Shown piece after piece: positions 2-16,501 of a stretch of DNA of 24,637 bases (position 1 is its first letter; every line of letters starts with the position of its first letter). The DNA comes from a virus. The stretch covers positions 1-24,637 of IMG/VR virus record IMGVR_UViG_3300029908_001149. One strand, 5' to 3'. A program made the position numbers and the translations under genes. The notes under the pieces are model-generated. The model ran no database searches. It was given only the letters and a program-made list of their open reading frames with translations, and was not told the origin of the DNA.

Positions 2-235
2 TGGTATCTCGACAATAAGCTTCACCGCGAAGACGGACCGGCTGTTGAGTGGAATGATGGAGAATTGTGGTGGTATTTGAACGGTGGCTTTCACCGCGAA
101 GATGGACCTGCTATAGTCAGACTGGATGGCAACAATGTTTGGTTTTTAAACAACCGAGAGCTTACCGAAGAAGAATTCTCTGGATATTTAAGAAATAAAC
201 AGTTCAACGACAGTATTAACGAGGCTTTAAAATGA
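2..235 (+). CDS. HREDGPA-repeat protein, 5'-truncated by window edge
   Basis: Open at the window start; 77 residues are visible in the frame beginning at base 2. It holds two copies of a roughly 23-residue repeat (W-Y-L-x-x-K-L-HREDGPA-x-E-W-x-DG), which resembles the MORN-like/YwqK-type repeats seen in phage and giant-virus proteins. It ends with the module TEEEF-x6-NKQFNDSINEALK that closes several other proteins here. The stop TGA overlaps the next ATG as ATGA, and the GAGG in the Glu-Ala codons (223-226 region) is the next gene's Shine-Dalgarno, so the two genes are translationally coupled. Function is unknown; such repeats usually form beta-hairpin stacks. The repeat family is certain, the role is not. 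Confidence 0.85.
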   Translation, partial: WYLDNKLHREDGPAVEWNDGELWWYLNGGFHREDGPAIVRLDGNNVWFLNNRELTEEEFSGYLRNKQFNDSINEALK

Positions 236-720
236 AAGACGGATTAACTATCGATGAATACGGTAATAAATTCTGGTACAAGAATAATGTTTCTCACCGT
301 GAAGATGGTCCAGCCGGAGAATGGGCTGACGGCGGCTCTAAACACTGGTGTTTAAATGGTAAATACCACCGCGAAGATGGTCCAGCTATCGAATGGGCTA
401 ACGGAACTAAAGAATGGTATTTAAACGACAAACTTCACCGCGAAGACGGTCCAGCTGTCGAACGGGGTGACAATGGTAACAAAGAATGGCGTCAATACGA
501 TAAATTACATCGCAAGGACGGTCCAGCCATTGAACGTTACGATGGTTCTAACTTCTGGTACTTAGAAGGCAAACTTCATCGCGAAGACGGTCCCGCTATA
601 GAGTATTCTAATGGTGAAAAAGTATGGTCCCTTCACGGTGAAGAAGTTACCGAAGAAGAATTCAATCAACTTCAACGTACTAAACAATTCAACGACAATA
701 TCAATGAGGCCTTGAAATGA
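232..720 (+). CDS. HREDGPA-repeat protein (five repeats, conserved C-terminal tail)
   Basis: A 162-residue protein made almost wholly of five tandem 23-24-residue repeats, each starting HR(E/K)DGPA, followed by an acidic or aromatic stretch and a W-Y-L type beta strand. The last 25 residues are the shared tail module (TEEEF ... QFNDNINEALK). There is no signal peptide or membrane segment, so it is probably a soluble cytoplasmic protein. The start ATG overlaps the upstream stop by 4 nt and is preceded by GAGG at 7 nt. Its own TGA overlaps the start of the IscA-like gene in the same way. Similarity to MORN_2/YwqK-type repeats is recognised by eye; the function is unknown. Confidence 0.9.
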   Translation: MKDGLTIDEYGNKFWYKNNVSHREDGPAGEWADGGSKHWCLNGKYHREDGPAIEWANGTKEWYLNDKLHREDGPAVERGDNGNKEWRQYDKLHRKDGPAIERYDGSNFWYLEGKLHREDGPAIEYSNGEKVWSLHGEEVTEEEFNQLQRTKQFNDNINEALK

Positions 721-4216: not shown

Positions 4217-5722
4217 CTATTTCTTAGGTTTCTTAGGCATACTTTTTGCTAGGATCTTTTCTGCTTTTAAGGATTTATTCATAGCAATAACTGAACCAAT
4301 AGAATCGATCTCGCCTAAAGTTAAGTTAGGCATTCTTTTGTGCATGAAATCTCGGAATTCTTCTTTCTTGCCCCAAACCTTGTATTCTTCCTTGGCACGT
4401 TTGGACCATTTTTTCTTACCACTATCCAAACTTTCCTTCACTAATGCGGCACCGCCAGCTAATTGAGAAGGAGCGACGTTTCCAGATCCGGCAGTCAAAG
4501 CTTTCTTGATCTCTTTCTGGCCAGCCTTAGGGGCTCCGGAAGCTCCTTGAGAAGGCATGTTAAACGATCTGTTGCCGCCAGTAGTACCGGCGTTTAAACC
4601 GCTTAGGTATTTATGAGCATGAGCGCTAGCACTTTTCGCATCTGCGTGTCCATGACCAGAAACTCCGCCGACTCCAGCATAGTTACCGGCATGTTTAACG
4701 TCAAACTTATTAGTTTCAGGATTTTTCATAACTGAAACAGTCCCCATCATTGGGTGCTCATAATGAGCTGCAGCATTGCCGCCTTTAGTTTGCACCAAAG
4801 TGCCTTGCCAGCCTTCTGGAGCTTTGATCTTTTGTCTTGTTTCAGTATTAAAAGGTATAGGAGTGCCGACCGGCTTAGGAGCTTTTGGTGCTGCTGGTTC
4901 AGCTTTCTTCATATTAGCAGCTTCGGTATGTTTTTTACCTTCAGCAGTGTGCATATCGGAGATATGAGAGGCCGGAGCTAAGTGGGCGACTCCATGTCCG
5001 CTAGCGTAATCGGCGTGCATTGCTGCAGCTTCATGATGTTCAGCTGGAGTGAAATCTTTGTGAGCAGGATGCTCAAAATTGATATGGATCGGTTTGCCAG
5101 TGGAAGTATGGTCGTAGGGACGTTTACTGAATTTGTCGGCTTTTTCCATGGTAGTTCCTGCGTTAAGTAATTGGATGGCAATCGAAGATTCGGATTTAAA
5201 GATATCTTGATCAAAAAGATCATTCATAGAATCTTTTACAGGTTTATTTTCTGGCATTAATTTAGCAATAGCTGCTTTATTACAAGGAGTTACAGTGATA
5301 GTGACTTTGCGAGCGATAGATTTTGTGATGTACATTCCATTCTTATCTATCTTAGCTCCCTCGATTGAAAAGCCAACGATATCATGTTCATGGGAATTAG
5401 CGGCAGAGTACATAAATAGACCGGCAATATCTTTTGCTGATTCATTATAATCGTCAAATAATTCGCCAGTAATATAAAGAAAGGGAACTTGACATTGGGA
5501 CCAGAAGAATTTCTCATTATCTGAGGAGCATTCGTCTTCGGTCATTATTTTCTTAGCAGTTAGGATTTTACCTACAGTTTGCCCAGGAAGATCGGATTTG
5601 TGTTCAAAGTTTAAAGTACCATCTTTATCCAAAGATGTAATATCCAATCCGGACATTAAGAGCACTTCTCCTGAACTATCGATGTTCTCACTGGCCGCAA
5701 TGCCTTGAATTTTAGTAGCCAT
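4217..5722 (-). CDS. prohead (capsid maturation) serine protease with long scaffold-like C-terminal region
   Basis: A 501-residue protein. The N-terminal ~165 residues look like a herpesvirus/phage prohead protease: a catalytic His in NFEHKSDLPGQTVGKI (H41), a catalytic Ser in VGFSIEGAK (S119), and the strand IARKVTITVTPCNKAA that follows it in this family. It would cleave scaffold and capsid N-termini in the prohead. The rest is low-complexity: a His-rich stretch (about 210-270), an Ala/Pro/Lys linker, a Gly-rich middle and a basic C-terminus ending KPKK. Around residues 405-430 it carries KALTAGSGNVAPSQLAGGAAL, closely matching the capsid protein N-terminus. A fused or embedded scaffold role is plausible. 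GAGG about 10 nt upstream supports the start. Confidence 0.8.
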   Translation of the reverse strand: MATKIQGIAASENIDSSGEVLLMSGLDITSLDKDGTLNFEHKSDLPGQTVGKILTAKKIMTEDECSSDNEKFFWSQCQVPFLYITGELFDDYNESAKDIAGLFMYSAANSHEHDIVGFSIEGAKIDKNGMYITKSIARKVTITVTPCNKAAIAKLMPENKPVKDSMNDLFDQDIFKSESSIAIQLLNAGTTMEKADKFSKRPYDHTSTGKPIHINFEHPAHKDFTPAEHHEAAAMHADYASGHGVAHLAPASHISDMHTAEGKKHTEAANMKKAEPAAPKAPKPVGTPIPFNTETRQKIKAPEGWQGTLVQTKGGNAAAHYEHPMMGTVSVMKNPETNKFDVKHAGNYAGVGGVSGHGHADAKSASAHAHKYLSGLNAGTTGGNRSFNMPSQGASGAPKAGQKEIKKALTAGSGNVAPSQLAGGAALVKESLDSGKKKWSKRAKEEYKVWGKKEEFRDFMHKRMPNLTLGEIDSIGSVIAMNKSLKAEKILAKSMPKKPKK

Positions 5723-5771
5723 TTTGTATAATCCTCAGCATTAAGATTGCTTTGTATAAAACTCTTACATA

Positions 5772-5780
5772 ACTATATCA
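5772..5780 (-). promoter_or_regulatory. extended -10 (TGATATAGT) upstream of the protease gene
   Basis: The 225-bp divergent gap between the protease (-) and the 159-aa gene (+) is AT-rich and holds this TGATATAGT on the minus strand, about 50 bp from the protease ATG. No matching -35 is seen. On the plus side only a possible TATACT at 5929-5934 is visible, too close to the ribosome binding site to be convincing. Confidence 0.35.
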
Positions 5781-5947
5781 CTGACTTGTAGTGGATTATA
5801 TAAGGTTAAAACTCATATTGATAATCATTGTAATTCTTTGAAATAACACAGGATCTTCTAACATGTTCCAAACATTGATTATAGTACATTAGTAGTATTG
5901 AAAATGTACACAGATTAACCATAAACCCTATACTTAGAGGTATTTAT

Positions 5948-6427
5948 ATGAAGAGTACAGCAAAAGCCATAGCTCTAGCAAGAGATCTAGGCGATAAATT
6001 AGCAATCCGTTTTCCAGCAGCCGCAGCTGGTCTTTCATTCGTTCGTCACTCTTTCGACAGCGCTGGCTGGCCAATGCTTTTCTTAAGCCATGCAGGAACT
6101 GAATCTGAAGGTTCACCAGTTATTCTTATCAGAATTATCGGTGTAGATGCTGGTTCTCCAGACATTTTCGGAAGTAGCACTTTCGCATATGCTCCTCATC
6201 TATTACAATTCGCTTTCGAATTAACAGCTACAGCTAACAAGCCATGGCCTTTACTTTCGGATATCGCAATCGCTTCAGCTGAATCAATCAAGACTGGTGT
6301 TGAATTTGAATTGTTTGAAATCGCTAGCGGAACCGCTGTAACTGAAGCTTCTCTTAACGCTGCAGTTGCTGCTGGCGCTCCTGCTGCAGACATTGACGAG
6401 CTATATTTCCCAACCAAGGGCGTTTAA
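5948..6427 (+). CDS. putative virion protein between protease and scaffold genes
   Basis: A 159-residue, Ala-rich, mixed alpha/beta protein with no recognised domain. Its C-terminal third is a low-complexity helical stretch rich in Ala, Glu and Ser, ending in ELYFPTKGV. AGAGG 7 nt before the ATG is a good ribosome binding site. It opens a plus-strand run with the scaffold (28-bp gap) and the capsid protein, so a head role, such as capsid decoration or a head-internal component, is the natural inference. The sequence itself does not prove it. No signal peptide or transmembrane segment. Confidence 0.6.
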   Translation: MKSTAKAIALARDLGDKLAIRFPAAAAGLSFVRHSFDSAGWPMLFLSHAGTESEGSPVILIRIIGVDAGSPDIFGSSTFAYAPHLLQFAFELTATANKPWPLLSDIAIASAESIKTGVEFELFEIASGTAVTEASLNAAVAAGAPAADIDELYFPTKGV

Positions 6428-6454
6428 TTTTAACACTTGGAAGGAGTATAAACC

Positions 6455-7363
6455 ATGCATTACACTGAGACTGAACTAGCAAAGCTAATTCAAAGTGTGG
6501 AAGCGGAATTCACCGCCCACCTCGCTAAGGCTGAGGAACACTTTGAACCTGAGCATAAAGATGCTAAAGAAGAACCTAAGCATCATGAAGAGCACAAAAA
6601 AGCTCATCATGAAGAAAAGGAATCTGAAGAGCATAAAGAAAGCCCAGAGCATGACTATGATGATGAAGACATGGAACATATGCATAAAATGTATATGAGC
6701 ATGCATAAAGGTGAGATCCACGCTCACCATCACGCTTTAAAGAAAGCCATGGAACACCATGGACTTACTTGCCATGATCTCGAAGAAGAAAAAGAGCATC
6801 ACGGCAAAGAAGAAGCTGAAGAAGAACATCATCACGGCAAAGAAGAAGCTGAAGAAGAACATCATCACGGCAAAGAAGAAGAAGAAACTAAGGCGCACCA
6901 CGAGAAGAAAGAAGCTATCAAAGGTGCTTTAAAAGAACCAAAAGAGATGGAGAAGGTTGAAAAACCGACCGAACTCAAGCCTCATGATAAACATGAAATC
7001 TCCCACAAAGAGTTGCATGAAAAGTCTAAGGATATTGGTTCCGAGCCTGAAATTCAAAAGTCTGAAATCGCAGCCCTTAAAGCTGAAAGAGATGGACTTA
7101 AGAAGAACTTGGATGTAATAACTGAATGGTTAAAGGGACAAGCTTCCAAGGCAGCCCCTCAAAGTAAGGCCATTACTCGATTGGATTCTATCACCAAAAG
7201 TGAAGAAACTAAAGAAGTAGCTACCTTATCCAAAACAGAAATTACGACCATATTAACCAAAAAATCTTCAGAACCAAGTTTATCGAAGTCTGATAGAGAA
7301 TTAATCAACGCTTACTACCTTGACGGTGCAAGCTTAACAAGTATCAGTCACTTACTCAAGTAA
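6455..7363 (+). CDS. His/Glu/Lys-rich protein, probable capsid scaffold
   Basis: A 302-residue, extremely charged protein directly upstream of the capsid gene, the usual place for a scaffolding protein. Residues about 30-165 are His/Glu/Lys-rich with three tandem copies of an 11-residue unit (HHHGKEEAEEE). Residues about 195-230 look like a coiled coil (KSEIAALKAERDGLKKNLD), and the last 25 form a short helical domain (DRELINAYYLDGASL...HLLK) resembling the compact capsid-binding end of scaffolds. AAGGAG lies 8 nt before the ATG. The His density could bind metal ions or make the protein pH-sensitive; that is inference. It does not carry the AGSxNxAP motif shared by protease and capsid. Confidence 0.6.
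   Translation: MHYTETELAKLIQSVEAEFTAHLAKAEEHFEPEHKDAKEEPKHHEEHKKAHHEEKESEEHKESPEHDYDDEDMEHMHKMYMSMHKGEIHAHHHALKKAMEHHGLTCHDLEEEKEHHGKEEAEEEHHHGKEEAEEEHHHGKEEEETKAHHEKKEAIKGALKEPKEMEKVEKPTELKPHDKHEISHKELHEKSKDIGSEPEIQKSEIAALKAERDGLKKNLDVITEWLKGQASKAAPQSKAITRLDSITKSEETKEVATLSKTEITTILTKKSSEPSLSKSDRELINAYYLDGASLTSISHLLK
6794..6889 (+). repeat. 33-bp tandem repeat inside the scaffold gene (about 2.9 copies)
   Basis: Unit boundaries at 6794, 6827 and 6860; each 33-bp unit encodes (E/H)HHGKEEAEEE. The first two copies are almost identical in bases and the third diverges after GKEE. The length keeps the frame, so copy number can vary without breaking the protein. Confidence 0.85.
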
Positions 7364-7390
7364 GAGACTTTAACTAGGAGATAATACCTT

Positions 7391-8797
7391 ATGTATACTG
7401 AACAAATGCAATCACTGATGAAGGCTTTGGAAGCTGGTTCTTACAATGCAGCTCCAGGCCAATTAGTACAAGGCGCTGCCTTGATGATCGAAGATCTTTC
7501 CCCAATCATGCACAATGTGACTTTTGATGATTCACACATCAAGTTACAAAAGATGCTAACTAGCAAGGCTGTTAAGTCGCAATTACATCAATTCGACAGA
7601 CAACTTGATTATGGTATCTTCGGTGGATCCGCTCAATTTGAAGGCGGGATCGGCGAAGAGGATACAAGTAATTTCGTCCGTGCTGTAGTGCCTATGGCTT
7701 ACTACTCCACGACACGTCGCGTAACTGTTGCTTCCAACATGGTAGCTACACTTGATGGCGTAAAAGCGGAAGATCGTTCAGCTGCTGACGCTGCAATGAA
7801 ACTTTGCGGTGACGTAGAATTCGACTTGTTCCGTGGACAATCTGACTTCTCAAACGCAGGCGTATTCGATGGTAACCCACTTGCAATCGCTAAAATGCCT
7901 AACATGATCGGCTTAGATCTTCAAGTACGTCAATCAGACGGTGAATTAAACACCCAAGATTTGATGTTCTCTGAATACGGATCTAGCTTGACTGTAGTAC
8001 TTTCGGCTGACGGAACGCTTACGCAATCCATCATCGAAGATTCTTCAGTAAGAAGTGCAATGAACATGGGTGCCGCTGACAAATTGTTAGTAGATCCAAT
8101 CGTTCTATCAGCTTACAACAAGATCTCACACGCTAAAGAACGTATCATGCTTGCTGGTTCAGCTCAAGAAGCTACTGGCGCTCACTTACGTACTCAATGG
8201 ACTTCAGCAGCTGTAGTTTCCTTAGAGCCTTCTAGGTTCCTTTCTGGAAAAACACAACCAGCTCGTGCTCGCTCCGGATCCCCAGCGGCTCCAGGTGCAA
8301 TCACTCCATCCGATGCAGGTGCAGCAGGTTCAATGTTAGCAGCTGGCACTTACTGGTACTTCGTAACTGCTTTCAGCATACGCGGTGAATCTCTTCCAAG
8401 TGCAGCAGTTTCCGTAGCGGTAGCTGCAGCAGGTGACAAAGTAACTGTTGCTATCCCAGCAGTAGCTTTGGCAGCGGGCTTCAACGTTTATCGTTCAGAA
8501 GTCGGCGGATCAGCTTCAAGTGCTCAATTCATCGGAAAGATCGCTTCTCCTTATGGAACAGGCGTAACTTTCACTGACTTAGGTGCTCGCTCCCCAGGTT
8601 CCGTAACAGGATTCTTGGTTCAAGGGAACACAATGGGTATTGCTCAACTTGCTCCTTATAGCAAATTAAAGCTTGCAGTCGCAGATTTGTCGCTTCCCGA
8701 AGCGCACTTCAGATTTCTATCTTTAGCAGTTTTCCAACCTCGTAAGAACGTTCTTTTAGACAATCTTACAGGACAATTGACTGGCGGCGGATACTAA
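7391..8797 (+). CDS. probable major capsid protein with an inserted Ig-like domain
   Basis: A 468-residue protein in the order protease, scaffold, capsid, preceded by AGGAGATAA and followed by a strong terminator, as expected for a highly expressed head gene. The N-terminus holds KALEAGSYNAAPGQLVQGAAL (11-31), near-identical to a segment of the protease C-terminus. The central part (about 40-290), with a long FDDSHIKLQKML-type helix and strands, fits an HK97-fold capsid. Residues about 296-405 (AAPGAITPSD ... TYWYFVTAFS ... GFNVYRSEVGG ... FTDLGARSPGS) read as an Ig/FN3-like domain inserted before the last strands (AHFRFLSLAVFQPRKNVLLDNLTG). The head role rests on context and composition; the family was not confirmed by search. 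Confidence 0.75.
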   Translation: MYTEQMQSLMKALEAGSYNAAPGQLVQGAALMIEDLSPIMHNVTFDDSHIKLQKMLTSKAVKSQLHQFDRQLDYGIFGGSAQFEGGIGEEDTSNFVRAVVPMAYYSTTRRVTVASNMVATLDGVKAEDRSAADAAMKLCGDVEFDLFRGQSDFSNAGVFDGNPLAIAKMPNMIGLDLQVRQSDGELNTQDLMFSEYGSSLTVVLSADGTLTQSIIEDSSVRSAMNMGAADKLLVDPIVLSAYNKISHAKERIMLAGSAQEATGAHLRTQWTSAAVVSLEPSRFLSGKTQPARARSGSPAAPGAITPSDAGAAGSMLAAGTYWYFVTAFSIRGESLPSAAVSVAVAAAGDKVTVAIPAVALAAGFNVYRSEVGGSASSAQFIGKIASPYGTGVTFTDLGARSPGSVTGFLVQGNTMGIAQLAPYSKLKLAVADLSLPEAHFRFLSLAVFQPRKNVLLDNLTGQLTGGGY

Positions 8798-8868: not shown

Positions 8869-10407
8869 CTATATTTTCTTTATCCATTTAGAATTTCCCG
8901 TACCATAAATTTTCCAGTACCCTTCTTCTTTCATAGCTGCGTCACCTTTTTTCCATGAGATCTGCCTAGGAAATCTTGACTCTTTATTACACCAGTGCAT
9001 ATCGGGTTCTGTGAATTCTACAAATTGGAACTTATTTCTCTCATAAACTTCACCGTGACTATAACGTCTATCTGCATATGTCATAATCGTATCTATTCCG
9101 TTAGCTTTTAGACTTTTCTCAGCTGAGGCCAGTAACCTATCGAAGCCAGAGCCTACGCTCCAATTTAGTTTGGAACAGAATCTAGCTATCTCTACTGTTT
9201 TTTCGTCTTCATTGACTCTAGGAGTTCTAAAAGTAAGTAGAGATACCAATTCGTCCTTATACCATAGACCTAGGCGTAACGTGCCTCGACATTGACCTTG
9301 CAAGTGATTTGCGTTTAAAAAAGCACTGGCCGTTTTATAATCAACTTCTTTCAAAGTACATTCTCTAGCATATATCTTATGTTGAAATATTCCTAATTTA
9401 GCTTTTATTACAGATTCTACTATATCAGTTTGTTCATTAATTTCATCTTCAAAAAACTGCAGTAACTTAATATCATGTTTGTCGGCTAATTCTGCCTTAA
9501 GCCTATGACTTGATCTGTCAACGCCTATAGAAATGTCCGATTCTGCCTCTTGATGCCAATATAGGCCGTGTAATTCGATTCCGAATTTGCGTTCTTCATC
9601 GTATAAATCTATTTCTAGAGCATTGTTCCCATTTTTAGTATCGTCCCTATATAAAACACGACGGTTCCGCTCTATATTAGGTAGAAGATCTTTTATAAAG
9701 TCATAAACTTTAATTTCCATTGAACTTTTAGGAGTACAAAACGGACAGTTACCGCGTTTAATAAAATTATTGCTGCGCTGTAAAAATATATGTTCTTTTG
9801 GACACATATATTGATACACTCCATCATCGTTGAAAGTTAACACAGTAAAATCTGGAAATCTCAGTTTAGCCAATCGAACATGTCTATCATGAAGAGAAAT
9901 CGCTTGTTCAGTTAAAGCATTGCTTACTCTAGTTTTACGCTCCTCATCAGTCAAGCTATCCCATATATTCTTGCCAAACTCAGATGTCCCAAAACCGCTA
10001 ACTTCGTTGTTTTTTAATGCAGTTTCTCTTCTAATTTCAATTGCTTCAGGATTTTCAGCTATATAATCAGTCACAGATTCTGAAATCTTATCTCTAGTAG
10101 CTTGAACAGACATGTTTTTAGTAGCTGTAACAGACCATTGATCACCTCTCTCGGCTATAGCTTTAGAAATAGCCTTACCCCTATTAGCGAGTACTATAGG
10201 GTCTTTGCTTTTAATTCTATTGGAGCAAATATTACAGATTAGTTTATCTTGATATTGTCCACGTCTTCGAATTTTAATTGGACTTAAGCAATTCTGAGTC
10301 GTGCATTGCCACAGCATTTGTGCTGGTTGTAATCTCGTACCTTCATAAGTACGTTCTCTATCTTTTGTAACTACTACTAAATCTTCTCTATCATTGGACC
10401 GGTTCAT
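8869..10407 (-). CDS. Vsr-like (EDxHD-type) homing endonuclease with zinc ribbons and GNAT-like C-terminal domain
   Basis: A 512-residue protein. Order of parts: an N-terminal Cys cluster (C35, C40, C58, C61); a linker; a second zinc ribbon (C202, H206, C221, C224); then a nuclease core with E231, EID (265-267), IELHGLYWH (277-285), H301 and the FFEDEI block (318-323). This arrangement is typical of the Vsr-like EDxHD homing endonucleases of phages. The final ~165 residues (YARECTLKEVDY...) look like the acetyltransferase-fold domain often attached to these proteins; no acetylation role is implied. It is free-standing, antisense to the capsid gene, with its own promoter, and would promote its own spread by cutting uninserted phage DNA. 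The ribosome binding site is poor (TTAGG about 10 nt upstream). Confidence 0.8.
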   Translation of the reverse strand: MNRSNDREDLVVVTKDRERTYEGTRLQPAQMLWQCTTQNCLSPIKIRRRGQYQDKLICNICSNRIKSKDPIVLANRGKAISKAIAERGDQWSVTATKNMSVQATRDKISESVTDYIAENPEAIEIRRETALKNNEVSGFGTSEFGKNIWDSLTDEERKTRVSNALTEQAISLHDRHVRLAKLRFPDFTVLTFNDDGVYQYMCPKEHIFLQRSNNFIKRGNCPFCTPKSSMEIKVYDFIKDLLPNIERNRRVLYRDDTKNGNNALEIDLYDEERKFGIELHGLYWHQEAESDISIGVDRSSHRLKAELADKHDIKLLQFFEDEINEQTDIVESVIKAKLGIFQHKIYARECTLKEVDYKTASAFLNANHLQGQCRGTLRLGLWYKDELVSLLTFRTPRVNEDEKTVEIARFCSKLNWSVGSGFDRLLASAEKSLKANGIDTIMTYADRRYSHGEVYERNKFQFVEFTEPDMHWCNKESRFPRQISWKKGDAAMKEEGYWKIYGTGNSKWIKKI

Positions 10408-11270: not shown

Positions 11271-11477
11271 CTAGTATCTTTTGTGCCACTGAGGTCTTTG
11301 ATGCAAGTATTTTGCAGCTTCAAGATCAGAGGCGGTTTGTTTTAACGTAGTAAGAACTTCATTTAACGATTCTTCATCTAGATCTAAGCTATTGATTTTC
11401 TTTATCATTGTATCAATATCTTTTTCCATATCTGATATTTGTAGTTGAAGTGTCTTTAAGAATTTATCTAATGCCAT
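11271..11477 (-). CDS. small coiled-coil protein
   Basis: A 68-residue, almost fully helical, heptad-like protein (FLKTLQLQISDMEKDIDTM...) with a basic, aromatic C-terminal end (HQRPQWHKRY). No known family. The ATG shares one base with the stop of the SbmA-like gene (TAATG), and GGAG is 9 nt upstream inside that gene, so it is translationally coupled to it. A partner or regulator of the transporter is a reasonable guess from coupling only. Confidence 0.7.
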   Translation of the reverse strand: MALDKFLKTLQLQISDMEKDIDTMIKKINSLDLDEESLNEVLTTLKQTASDLEAAKYLHQRPQWHKRY

Positions 11478-12367
11478 TATTTTGTCTCCATTTCGACTAT
11501 GCGATTAATCACTGATTCCAGTTTTGAAATATCATCCTGCTTCTCGATAATGAGTTCTGAACATTCAATAATGACTTTCATGGCATCTGCAGTCGCAAAA
11601 AGAACACCCAAAGAAAGAGTCCCAAAGAAATATTGCCTAGCCAGAAGCAAATGCGGGAATACTACTGCCGCTTGTAAATAGCCCGACTGAAAGAAACCTA
11701 ATTTCTTGGCTCGAATCATTAAAGCGGACCAGTTCTGTTTAACATCATCTAAGACTGGTGCTTTAGTGAAACTTTTATCCCAAGTAAGTATCTTTTGTCT
11801 TAGAGTTGATTCTCTGCTTTCTTGTTCATAGGAAAGTTGAACTAACGGTTGAGCGATCCATTTTGCAATTCGGCTGCCAACAATTACCCATATGGCTATT
11901 GGTAATAAAAACCAAGGACTAGCTGTGGAGACTAATAGGTATATGAAAATAGGTAAGGTAATAAAAGCGTTGATACAAGCTGTAGCCAAAGTCAAGGTCA
12001 TCGTTGTAAGTTCTTCTAAATCCATGGTCAATCGTTGCTCGTTAGTTCCCGTCTCATTTAAGACTCCAGAAGTAAGCTTTAAATACAAAGCCTCACGCCA
12101 AATGAACGATAGGCCTCTTTTAAAGTACGAATTATAACCTTTGCTCAAAACCCAAGCTGCTGCCATGGCGGAAAAGAAGGCTATGGCCTCTAAAAAGTGT
12201 TGGAAGTTGTGTTGTTGGAAAGAATCCATGAACATACGTCTAAATTGATTTAGACCGACCGTGAGAGCTACCATCGATAACTCAGTTAACAGAATTGCCA
12301 TCAGAAGCTTATAGCTGCCTTTGGCATTATAACACATCTTTAATAGCTTGAATAAATTCTTAAGCAT
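11477..12367 (-). CDS. SbmA/BacA-like ABC-transporter transmembrane protein lacking an ATPase
   Basis: A 296-residue polytopic membrane protein. Six likely membrane segments lie at about 20-40, 57-78, 124-147, 151-171, 224-247 and 252-275. Family marks of SbmA/BacA and ABC_membrane_2 proteins are visible: IWRE (89-92) after helix 2; NEQRLTMDLEE (109-119, like NPDQRIxEDI); the cytosolic stretch PLVQLSYEQESRESTLR (174-190); and AVVFPHLLLARQYFFGTLSLG (given as AVVFPHLLLARQ and YFFGTLSLG, 234-254). It ends with ISKLESVINRIVEM, where the transmembrane domain of relatives ends, and no nucleotide-binding domain follows in any frame. SbmA/BacA import peptides and some antibiotics using the proton gradient. 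An ATPase-less half transporter or dominant-negative partner of a host ABC protein is the alternative. Confidence 0.75.
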   Translation of the reverse strand: MLKNLFKLLKMCYNAKGSYKLLMAILLTELSMVALTVGLNQFRRMFMDSFQQHNFQHFLEAIAFFSAMAAAWVLSKGYNSYFKRGLSFIWREALYLKLTSGVLNETGTNEQRLTMDLEELTTMTLTLATACINAFITLPIFIYLLVSTASPWFLLPIAIWVIVGSRIAKWIAQPLVQLSYEQESRESTLRQKILTWDKSFTKAPVLDDVKQNWSALMIRAKKLGFFQSGYLQAAVVFPHLLLARQYFFGTLSLGVLFATADAMKVIIECSELIIEKQDDISKLESVINRIVEMETK

Positions 12368-14510: not shown

Positions 14511-14572
14511 TCCCAATCTTATGGATAGCGAACACGCGATAATTTACTTTGATCTTTCAAGGAGATCCTATC

Positions 14573-16501
14573 ATGGCCATTTCTAAATTCGATAATGATT
14601 ATTTTATCAATGCTTTAACTAGCCAAGCAGCCGGGTTGGAGTTGATTAGCGCTCTTGAAAATGGATCGGTTTTATCAACATTCACTTTAGATAGACTAAT
14701 CATAGCTTTAGGTAGTCAACAAGCTGCTTTAAATCTACAAGCCGCTATGATCAACAAGGGAATTCTTTCAGCAGAAGATATTCAATATATGAGCCAAGGC
14801 TTTGCTAATGCTCAAGTAGCTCAAGACGCCGTAGCAGCAATCGCATCTTCAAACGCAGTATCTAACGCTATAACTGCTCCATCTTTAGTAGGAATGCCAA
14901 TAACTTACGGATTAGAAGTGGCAAATTCCGGAGTTACACAAGCTCAAATAGTAAGTTTAAGCGCTCCAGCAGGAAGTTCTTTCCCTACAACTGGAACAGC
15001 CGGATACGTTGAACTGTACAACGGCGGAGACGCTAATAAGTATTATGTATGGTATAGCGTTCTAGGTGGCAGCGTAGTTGATCCAGCTCCAGCCGGGTTC
15101 ACTGGTATCGAAGTCATTATAAACGCCAGTGATACTGCTGCAGCTGTCGCTACAAAGACTCTGACAGCGATTGCTGCTGGAACCGTAGCTTTATCTACAT
15201 CCGTTTCCGGATCAGTAGTCAGCATTACTGCAACTGTAGTTTTAGTCGCTACTCCTACTTTCTCTTTACCAGCTGGAACTTATTCTGGGACACAATTTGT
15301 AACCCTTTCTTGCTCTACAGCCGGTGCGTCAATGTTCTATACATTGGATGGATCCTCTCCTACGATTTCAAGTACACCTTACGTAACAGCGATCTCGGTT
15401 GGCGCTAGCGAAACTATTAAGGTATTAGCTACCAAATCAGGTCTAGCTAATTCCGCAATCGCAAGTGCAGCTTACGTGATTACTGGATCAGCAGGTGTCG
15501 CTACTCACTTAGTGTTTTCAACACAACCTTCAGCAGGTGTAGCTGGAGTCGCTTTTCCTACTCAACCTATCGTAACCATTAAAGATGCTTCAGGCGCAAC
15601 AGTAACGACTGGTGCAGATGCTACTGCTTCTATTACTCTATCACTTCTTTCAGGAACCGGAGTTCTATCCGGTACAGTAACCATGGCTGCTGTTGCGGGT
15701 GTAGCTGACTTCGTAGGTAAAGGGGTTAAGATAAACTTATACGGTAATAAAACTTTATTAGCAACTAAAGCTGACACTACCGGCGGCGGCGGGACAGTCT
15801 CGTTCACAATCGCTAGCGATACTTTTAATATCGCTAACAGTTTAGCAACCGTTGACCTAGGAACATCTGCTAACTATAAGATCTTAGCTGAGTCTGGCAT
15901 TTCCACAACAGCTGGATCTTTTATCACTGGCGCTATTGCAGTAAGCCCTATAGCTTCAACGGCAATAACCGGTTTCGGTCTAATATTAGATGGAAGTGGA
16001 ACCTTCTCTACCTCTTCATTAGTAAGCGGACATGTATTCGCAGCAGATTACGCTTCTCCTACTCCAGCGACTTTGACTACAGCAATAAGTGACATGGGAA
16101 CAGCCTATACGGACGCGGCTGGCCGACCAACTCCTGATTTTACAAATCTAGGTTCTGGTAATCTTGGCGGATTAACATTAACTCCTGGTCTATACAAATG
16201 GACAAGTGGCGTAACGATTCCAACTAACGTGACAATTTCCGGTGGACCAAACGATATTTTCATATTCCAAATCGCCGGTACATTAGTAATGTCAGCTTCC
16301 ACCAGTATCATTCTAAGTGGTGGAGTAGTTGCTTCCAATATCTTCTGGCAAGTTGCCGGAGCTGTAACCATTGGAGCAAATGCTGTATTTAGTGGTATTG
16401 TATTAGCGCAAACAAGCGTCGCTTTAGTAACCAGTGCTTCTTTAAGCGGACGTATCTTAGCTCAAACAGCTGCTACCTTACAAAGTAACGCTATAACCTA
16501 A
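14573..16501 (+). CDS. modular virion-type protein with C-terminal DUF3494 ice-binding domain
   Basis: A 642-residue protein; the start is ATG 14573 because AAGGAG lies 8 nt upstream (an upstream in-frame TTG is discarded). Parts: a helical N-terminus (1-125); a beta region typical of phage fibre/tail proteins (about 130-225, GYVELYNGGDANKYYVWY); a chitobiase-C-terminal/FN3-like domain (about 228-305, VTLSCSTAGASMFYTLDGSSP); an Ig-like domain (about 309-420); and a DUF3494 ice-binding domain (about 424-642). The last is recognised by DLGTSANYKILAESGIS, ITGAIAVSPIASTAITGF, ADYASPTP, AYTDAAGR, LTPGLYKW, NDIFIFQIAGTL, NIFWQVAG and GRILAQTAATL. DUF3494 folds into a beta-solenoid that binds ice in polar bacteria, algae and fungi. 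There is no signal peptide, so placement on the virion is likelier than secretion. A terminator follows. Confidence 0.85.
   Translation: MAISKFDNDYFINALTSQAAGLELISALENGSVLSTFTLDRLIIALGSQQAALNLQAAMINKGILSAEDIQYMSQGFANAQVAQDAVAAIASSNAVSNAITAPSLVGMPITYGLEVANSGVTQAQIVSLSAPAGSSFPTTGTAGYVELYNGGDANKYYVWYSVLGGSVVDPAPAGFTGIEVIINASDTAAAVATKTLTAIAAGTVALSTSVSGSVVSITATVVLVATPTFSLPAGTYSGTQFVTLSCSTAGASMFYTLDGSSPTISSTPYVTAISVGASETIKVLATKSGLANSAIASAAYVITGSAGVATHLVFSTQPSAGVAGVAFPTQPIVTIKDASGATVTTGADATASITLSLLSGTGVLSGTVTMAAVAGVADFVGKGVKINLYGNKTLLATKADTTGGGGTVSFTIASDTFNIANSLATVDLGTSANYKILAESGISTTAGSFITGAIAVSPIASTAITGFGLILDGSGTFSTSSLVSGHVFAADYASPTPATLTTAISDMGTAYTDAAGRPTPDFTNLGSGNLGGLTLTPGLYKWTSGVTIPTNVTISGGPNDIFIFQIAGTLVMSASTSIILSGGVVASNIFWQVAGAVTIGANAVFSGIVLAQTSVALVTSASLSGRILAQTAATLQSNAIT

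Follow-up and report, generated by a model that had tools for sequence, protein, structure and literature searches.

Why should a prohead protease carry, in its C-terminal part, a copy of the segment with which the major capsid protein of the same phage begins? This question is raised by a stretch of viral DNA of 24,637 nucleotides (positions 1 to 24,637 of IMG/VR virus record IMGVR_UViG_3300029908_001149), hereafter the window, in which an earlier note had pointed to a motif common to the two proteins. The comparison starts from two genes and one segment of each, the symbol ↓ marking here and below a known or candidate point of cleavage:

5722..4217, minus strand: prohead (head maturation) protease, 501 residues, matched by phrog_1028 over residues 5-151 (E = 3.4e-8)
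7391..8797, plus strand: major capsid protein, 468 residues, matched by phrog_752, major head protein (3.2e-36)
4427..4504, minus strand: capsid-arm mimic of the protease, K407↓ALTAGSGNVAPSQLAGGAALVKESL432, with candidate cleavage K407↓A408 (alignment, shuffles and motif profile)
7421..7498, plus strand: N-arm motif of the capsid protein, K11↓ALEAGSYNAAPGQLVQGAALMIEDL36, the original of the mimic (alignments and motif profile)

The capsid motif within the protease

Between K407-L427 of the protease (KALTAGSGNVAPSQLAGGAAL) and K11-L31 of the capsid (KALEAGSYNAAPGQLVQGAAL), 15 of the 21 positions are identical, which is the count that the earlier note had given; its capsid span of 11-31 was exact, and its protease span of 407-428 is one residue too long. 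The likeness begins at the Lys that matches the maturation cleavage site of the A511 capsid and extends beyond the counted positions into ...GAALxxE(D/S)L, reaching L36 of the capsid and L432 of the protease. Local alignment of the capsid motif with the protease scores 72, the best of 200 shuffles reaching 39, and the two full-length proteins align with a score of 74 against 59 for the best of 300 shuffles. The wide difference in codons, likewise claimed before, is confirmed at the DNA level: 40 of 66 bases are the same over 22 codons (protease residues 406-427, capsid 10-31), and among 17 identical residues in a 28-residue stretch 7 share their codon, where codon usage predicts 6.9. The match is far beyond chance and is no recent copy at the level of DNA.

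Both genes can be named by sequence criteria. The protease is a prohead protease on the strength of its profile match to phrog_1028 and a conserved His and Ser, and it matches the prohead protease of Myxococcus phage Mx1 (tblastn, 7e-27); E40-H41 and S119-x-E121-G122 are invariant across an alignment of 10 relatives, and H41 and S119 would by analogy be the catalytic His and Ser. The capsid protein is of the SPO1 type, matching the solved chain of SPO1 Gp6.1 (PDB 9vel) at 3.7e-23, and an HK97 fold is predicted for it from this homology only.

Recurrence and co-variation of the pairing

Thirteen capsid loci from IMG/VR were taken as relatives of the window (loci carry L numbers; L011 is the contig with the window's own genes). 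The nearest named phage is Mx1, whose capsid is 54% identical to that of the window and whose record gives no family, and identity to SPO1-type capsids is about 25%. Capsid and protease alike carry the motif in L002-L007, L012 and Mx1; no protease was found in the L010 stretch. In the alignment of window-group proteases the mimic forms a conserved block, with K407 unvarying, whereas the surrounding linker is poorly conserved and differs greatly in length. The protease gene runs opposite to the scaffold and capsid genes in most of the group (the window, L002-L009 and L013), and in the same orientation in L012 and Mx1. The Mx1 protease (L015, 6003-9722) reaches 1,239 residues, about 900 of which lie beyond the mimic and the tail that follows it and have no known function.

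The pairing is not confined to the window phage or its group. With other sequences it recurs in A511 (capsid K↓SFTTGYGITPDTQTDAGALRREFLDDQISML, protease K↓SWTTGHGTTPDTQVNAGALRRESLANSISVL) and in SPO1 (capsid K↓ALEAGHTVNPLDLEGGGAFRVESLERSLHNLSF, protease K↓SLEAGYEVDPEKMEGGDVFRKESLDKDLKNLSY), in phages of Enterococcus, Staphylococcus, Bacillus, Priestia, Lactobacillus, Exiguobacterium and Lysinibacillus, and in a distant group around Pseudomonas phage Touem01 and Morganella phage Mecenats66. Even a plain search with the A511 protease against PDB sequences matches the phage K-type capsid (residues 19-56, E 9e-6). A motif profile, applied with a cut-off of E below 1e-3 to 4,772 stop-to-stop stretches from about 60 loci, matches no protein other than a capsid or a protease and never more than a single one of either at a locus, and at nearly all of these loci both proteins carry the motif; the search of related phages that had been proposed earlier has thus turned up no unrelated proteins. 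The controls T4 gp23/gp21 and HK97 gp5/gp4 give no capsid/protease motif match when alignments are compared with shuffles. Two Bacteroidetes phages lack the pairing as well. In one of them, Chryseobacterium phage MA9V-3, the protease (XQU63092) has no mimic and continues into a scaffold-like region with many K-S sites, to which it is fused; a scan for relatives of this fusion returned none. The fusion (L070, 5267-6865) is annotated merely as a hypothetical protein.

The two copies also change together. In a set of 17 representatives and 33 positions, with MA9V-3 outside the set, identity is 54% between the capsid copy and the protease copy of one phage, and between different phages it is 34% (capsid to protease), 39% (capsid to capsid) and 35% (protease to protease). 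Two copies evolving independently would not by itself favour the own pairing, yet 100,000 random re-pairings all fall short of the observed identity sum, and the own pairing wins within clades as well (Touem01 group p 0.002, window 0.018, SPO1 0.036, A511 0.004), with p-values that are somewhat too small because the permutations treat phages of shared ancestry as exchangeable. Single residues follow the same course: Glu is replaced by Gln in capsid and protease alike in the Touem01 group, and in most of its phages AGYG(S/T)D shows the same choice of S or T in both proteins, L086 being an exception; both L077 proteins show AG to AS and R to G, both Mx1 proteins have AGN, and both L012 proteins have AGG. 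Codons agree at 266 of 601 identical residues, 259.8 being predicted from codon usage. Agreement at expectation indicates that the likeness is kept by selection at the protein level, and it rules out both gene conversion and a recent duplication of the motif. Presence, specificity, co-variation and constraint at the protein level are established for the motif.

Probable cleavage at the motif boundary and a proposed docking of the protease

The reading of these data depends on where the two proteins are cut, for which further features of the window have to be considered:

7391..7423, plus strand: predicted capsid propeptide MYTEQMQSLMK, residues 1-11, from alignment to A511 Cps
8288..8590, plus strand: beta-domain inserted into the capsid protein at residues about 300-400, Ig-like in appearance (predicted local distance difference test, pLDDT, about 70-80)
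6455..7363, plus strand: candidate scaffolding protein, 302 residues, rich in Glu, Lys and His, between protease and capsid as in SPO1
5258..5722, minus strand: catalytic domain of the protease, residues about 1-155, from the alignment of 10 relatives and the phrog_1028 match at 5-151
5192..5197, minus strand: candidate first self-cleavage site F-K176↓S177-E after the catalytic domain, proposed from alignment
4265..4405, minus strand: conserved tail after the mimic, residues about 440-486, W..RA.E.Y..W.KKEEF..FM......GEIDAIG.T.ALKKS, from alignment

In the A511 record (mat_peptide) the mature capsid runs from S24, after K23, and the Staphylococcus phage K-type capsid chain of PDB 9row begins with SFQTGYG; both starts are the start of the motif, which identifies it as the N-arm of the mature capsid. 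By alignment, the window capsid would be cut at K11↓A12 and the protease at the equivalent K407↓A408. The Lys at the capsid site is unvarying in the window-group alignment, and so are F175, K176 and E178 of the protease, where the first candidate site takes the form F-K↓(S/T)-E. A cut behind the conserved Glu in ALxxE(D/S), which would parallel L-x-E in T4 and S-x-E in phiKZ, was considered and rejected, since the A511 and 9row starts follow Lys; it is also disfavoured by the Gln that replaces this Glu in the Touem01 group. Dipeptides of the form K-[SA] are in surplus in most candidate scaffolds (SPO1, 14 against 4.8 expected; L013, 19 against 7.5; the window candidate, 12 against 6.7, p 0.016), the MA9V-3 entry in this count being the protease-scaffold fusion, whereas the capsids show no surplus (81 against 82 expected). 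Family searches with the window candidate scaffold gave no match. These counts suggest K↓[SA] specificity for this branch of proteases, unlike the E-specific T4 and phiKZ enzymes (PMC9026906).

In a structure model of the SPO1-type protease L021 the catalytic domain is recognisable, residues 142-208, which include the mimic, have a pLDDT below 50 and are not placed, and the tail is predicted to be helical with modest confidence; the conserved tail of the window protease is probably helical. A Foldseek search with the L021 model returns herpesvirus proteases or T4 gp21 as all of its 24 best PDB matches, at weak E-values of 0.02-0.2, herpesvirus assemblins and T4 gp21 topping the list. For the window capsid the model is poor, at a pLDDT of 41, apart from the inserted beta-domain, and the arm cannot be placed from it.

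The reading that we prefer, at a probability of roughly 0.55, is that the mimic docks the protease in the growing prohead at the site of the capsid arm and that self-cleavage then frees the catalytic domain. The protease consists of this domain, a variable linker and a C-terminal part with the copy of the capsid N-arm, which in the capsid would begin at the maturation cleavage point and remain on the mature shell. The protease copy would bind the partner of the capsid arm inside the growing prohead, presumably a neighbouring capsid subunit or, as second choice, the scaffold, and docking would thereby bring the enzyme into the prohead and keep it beside its substrates. Once maturation sets in, the protease would cleave behind Lys at K↓A or K↓S sites, of which K11↓A12 lies in the capsid, others in the scaffold and two, F-K176↓S-E and K407↓A408, in its own chain; the self-cuts would release the catalytic domain from the docking tail. 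For the window phage we infer cleavage, docking and the identity of the partner, whereas cleavage of the A511 capsid at the motif boundary is known.

A shared binding partner best explains why the shared part is the arm that is retained on the mature capsid and why it co-varies, and the MA9V-3 fusion without a mimic is what would be expected if fusion replaces docking. The earlier note had suggested either a common partner, with the protease mimicking the capsid N-arm, or a cleavage or assembly signal; the former gains plausibility from the co-variation downstream of the cut in four clades, the latter from the coincidence of the N-terminal motif boundary with the maturation cleavage point of the A511 and phage K-type capsids. 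The mature particles of the A511-like phage CKA15 (4 peptides, 29.5% coverage; PMC12282133) and of fRuSau02 (PMC5618024) contain protease peptides, which we count as support, the part of the protease from which they derive not being stated. SPN3US gp245, which cuts off its own 64-residue C-terminal propeptide (PMC10052503), offers a precedent for C-terminal self-processing. A more tentative proposal is that SPO1-type and related phages in general load the maturation protease into the prohead by capsid-arm mimicry; cleavage where the mimic begins would free the catalytic domain, and the severed tail may stay on the inner shell of the mature head. On this proposal we are evenly divided at best.

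Several observations weigh against docking, besides the permutation p-values being too small as noted above. The surplus of K-[SA] is not significant in the A511 and L012 scaffolds. The protease mimic is degraded in L008, L009 and L013, where the K and parts of APxxLxxxxALxxE persist, so that the loss in close relatives which had been named beforehand as telling against a shared motif is found as a weakening on the protease side. Bacteroides phage DAC19 has a separate protease that shows no mimic when alignments are set against shuffles, and a scan for DAC19 relatives gave two short, weak matches only; it is an exception without explanation, and the mimic is dispensable in the wider family.

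The main rival to docking takes the motif as an extended substrate signal, an exosite of the protease recognising the arm in both proteins and the protease copy serving as a pseudo-substrate that delays activation or directs self-cleavage. In each of the two proteins the known or predicted cut coincides precisely with the start of the motif, the P1 Lys is unvarying in window-group proteases, and a common exosite would account for the co-variation too; the K-[SA] sites of scaffolds, however, have no motif downstream, and T4-type proteases read few residues before the cut (L/I-x-E; PMC9026906). Co-varying residues reach about 20 positions from the cut, so that short substrate recognition alone is insufficient, and the model of a relative, which leaves the mimic unplaced (pLDDT under 50) and off the catalytic domain, would point weakly the same way. 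We consider an exosite unlikely.

In a special form of the docking reading the partner of both segments would be the scaffold or the portal (an initiation complex) in place of the shell, and the mimic would direct the protease into the core. This variant draws on the same data; the T4 protease belongs to the core (PMC9026906), and the MA9V-3 fusion fits recruitment through the scaffold well. Persistence of the arm on the mature capsid after the scaffold has gone suggests a role in the shell instead, and binding to scaffold or portal appears doubtful to us.

Much less probable is that the protease segment survives without function as a relic, left behind when the start of the capsid gene was duplicated or recombined long ago. 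The poor conservation of the remaining linker, the degenerate mimics of L008, L009 and L013 and its absence from DAC19 would suit a relic, which would nevertheless not keep changing with the capsid copy in four clades, nor stay a conserved block in a variable linker while its codons drifted to expectation. Chance or low-complexity similarity, to which the Ala/Gly-rich composition of the window might lend itself, is refuted by scores well above every shuffle, by recurrence with different sequences in the SPO1, A511 and Touem01 groups and by absence from T4 and HK97.

Known systems and neighbouring genes

The SPO1/A511-type head module (Herelleviridae) has a capsid and a protease homologous to those of the window and the same mimicry. 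SPO1 and A511 have the order portal-protease-scaffold-capsid, from which the window differs by its distant capsid, a protease gene inverted relative to the capsid gene and long linkers. In herpes simplex virus 1 (UL26/UL26.5) the protease precursor attaches to the major capsid protein by a C-terminal tail, which is cut off during maturation. The fold of the herpesvirus protease may be related to that of the window protease, to which the L021 model matches point at weak E-values; the herpesvirus tail is common to protease and scaffold, whereas the window protease segment is common to the capsid protein itself.

Targeting segments and self-removed C-terminal protease propeptides are known already, the former from the T4 capsid targeting sequence (CTS), the latter from SPN3US gp245 and phiKZ gp175 (PMC9026906, PMC10052503). 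The CTS of IPIII, IPII and IPI, which is cleaved by gp21, targets head proteins into the prohead, and like the window motif it is a short segment common to several head proteins and tied to a prohead-protease cleavage site (PMC9026906). It is N-terminal, 10 residues long, removed, cut at L/I-x-E and no copy of the major capsid protein, whereas the window segment, of about 26-36 residues, lies in the C-terminal part of the protease, copies the N-arm of the mature capsid and follows a K↓[SA] site; being C-terminal in the protease and preceded by Lys, it falls outside the T4 definition of a CTS. In T4 gp21, phiKZ gp175 and SPN3US gp245 a C-terminal part is self-removed, or possibly so, and for T4 gp21 a targeting role has been suggested; cleavage follows Glu and not Lys, and the excerpts of PMC9026906 and PMC10052503 report no capsid mimicry for these proteases. 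Self-cleavage of the T4 maturation protease, and the question whether its propeptides direct it into the prohead, are termed a major gap in PMC9026906.

A literature search whose reach did not include the SPO1/A511 genome papers found no description of a protease copy of the capsid N-arm that co-evolves with the capsid, which may be known nonetheless. Occurrence of the mimic in SPO1, A511, phage K and their relatives makes protease loading directly testable in well-studied laboratory phages, and the motif provides a simple sequence mark by which protease and capsid can be paired in metagenomes.

Other genes of the window lie on both sides of the head genes. Directly downstream of the capsid gene and on the opposite strand, 8869-10407 (minus) encodes a protein resembling HNH or homing endonucleases, the C-terminal part of which matches the Mom DNA-modification family. 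A 327-residue protein (1035-2018, minus) matches Alliinase_C / class I aminotransferases (7e-57), an odd pyridoxal-phosphate enzyme to stand near head genes, and 11477-12367 (minus) matches the SbmA/BacA-like ABC membrane domain (4e-15) of a peptide-transporter relative. The 650-residue product of 14549-16501 (plus), possibly a virion surface or host-derived protein, combines a chitobiase C-terminal-like domain with an Ice_binding (DUF3494-like) domain (8e-69) that follows it. Near the start of the window, 232-720 (plus) encodes a protein with repeated HREDGPA..W..G..W..N units that look MORN-like by inspection.

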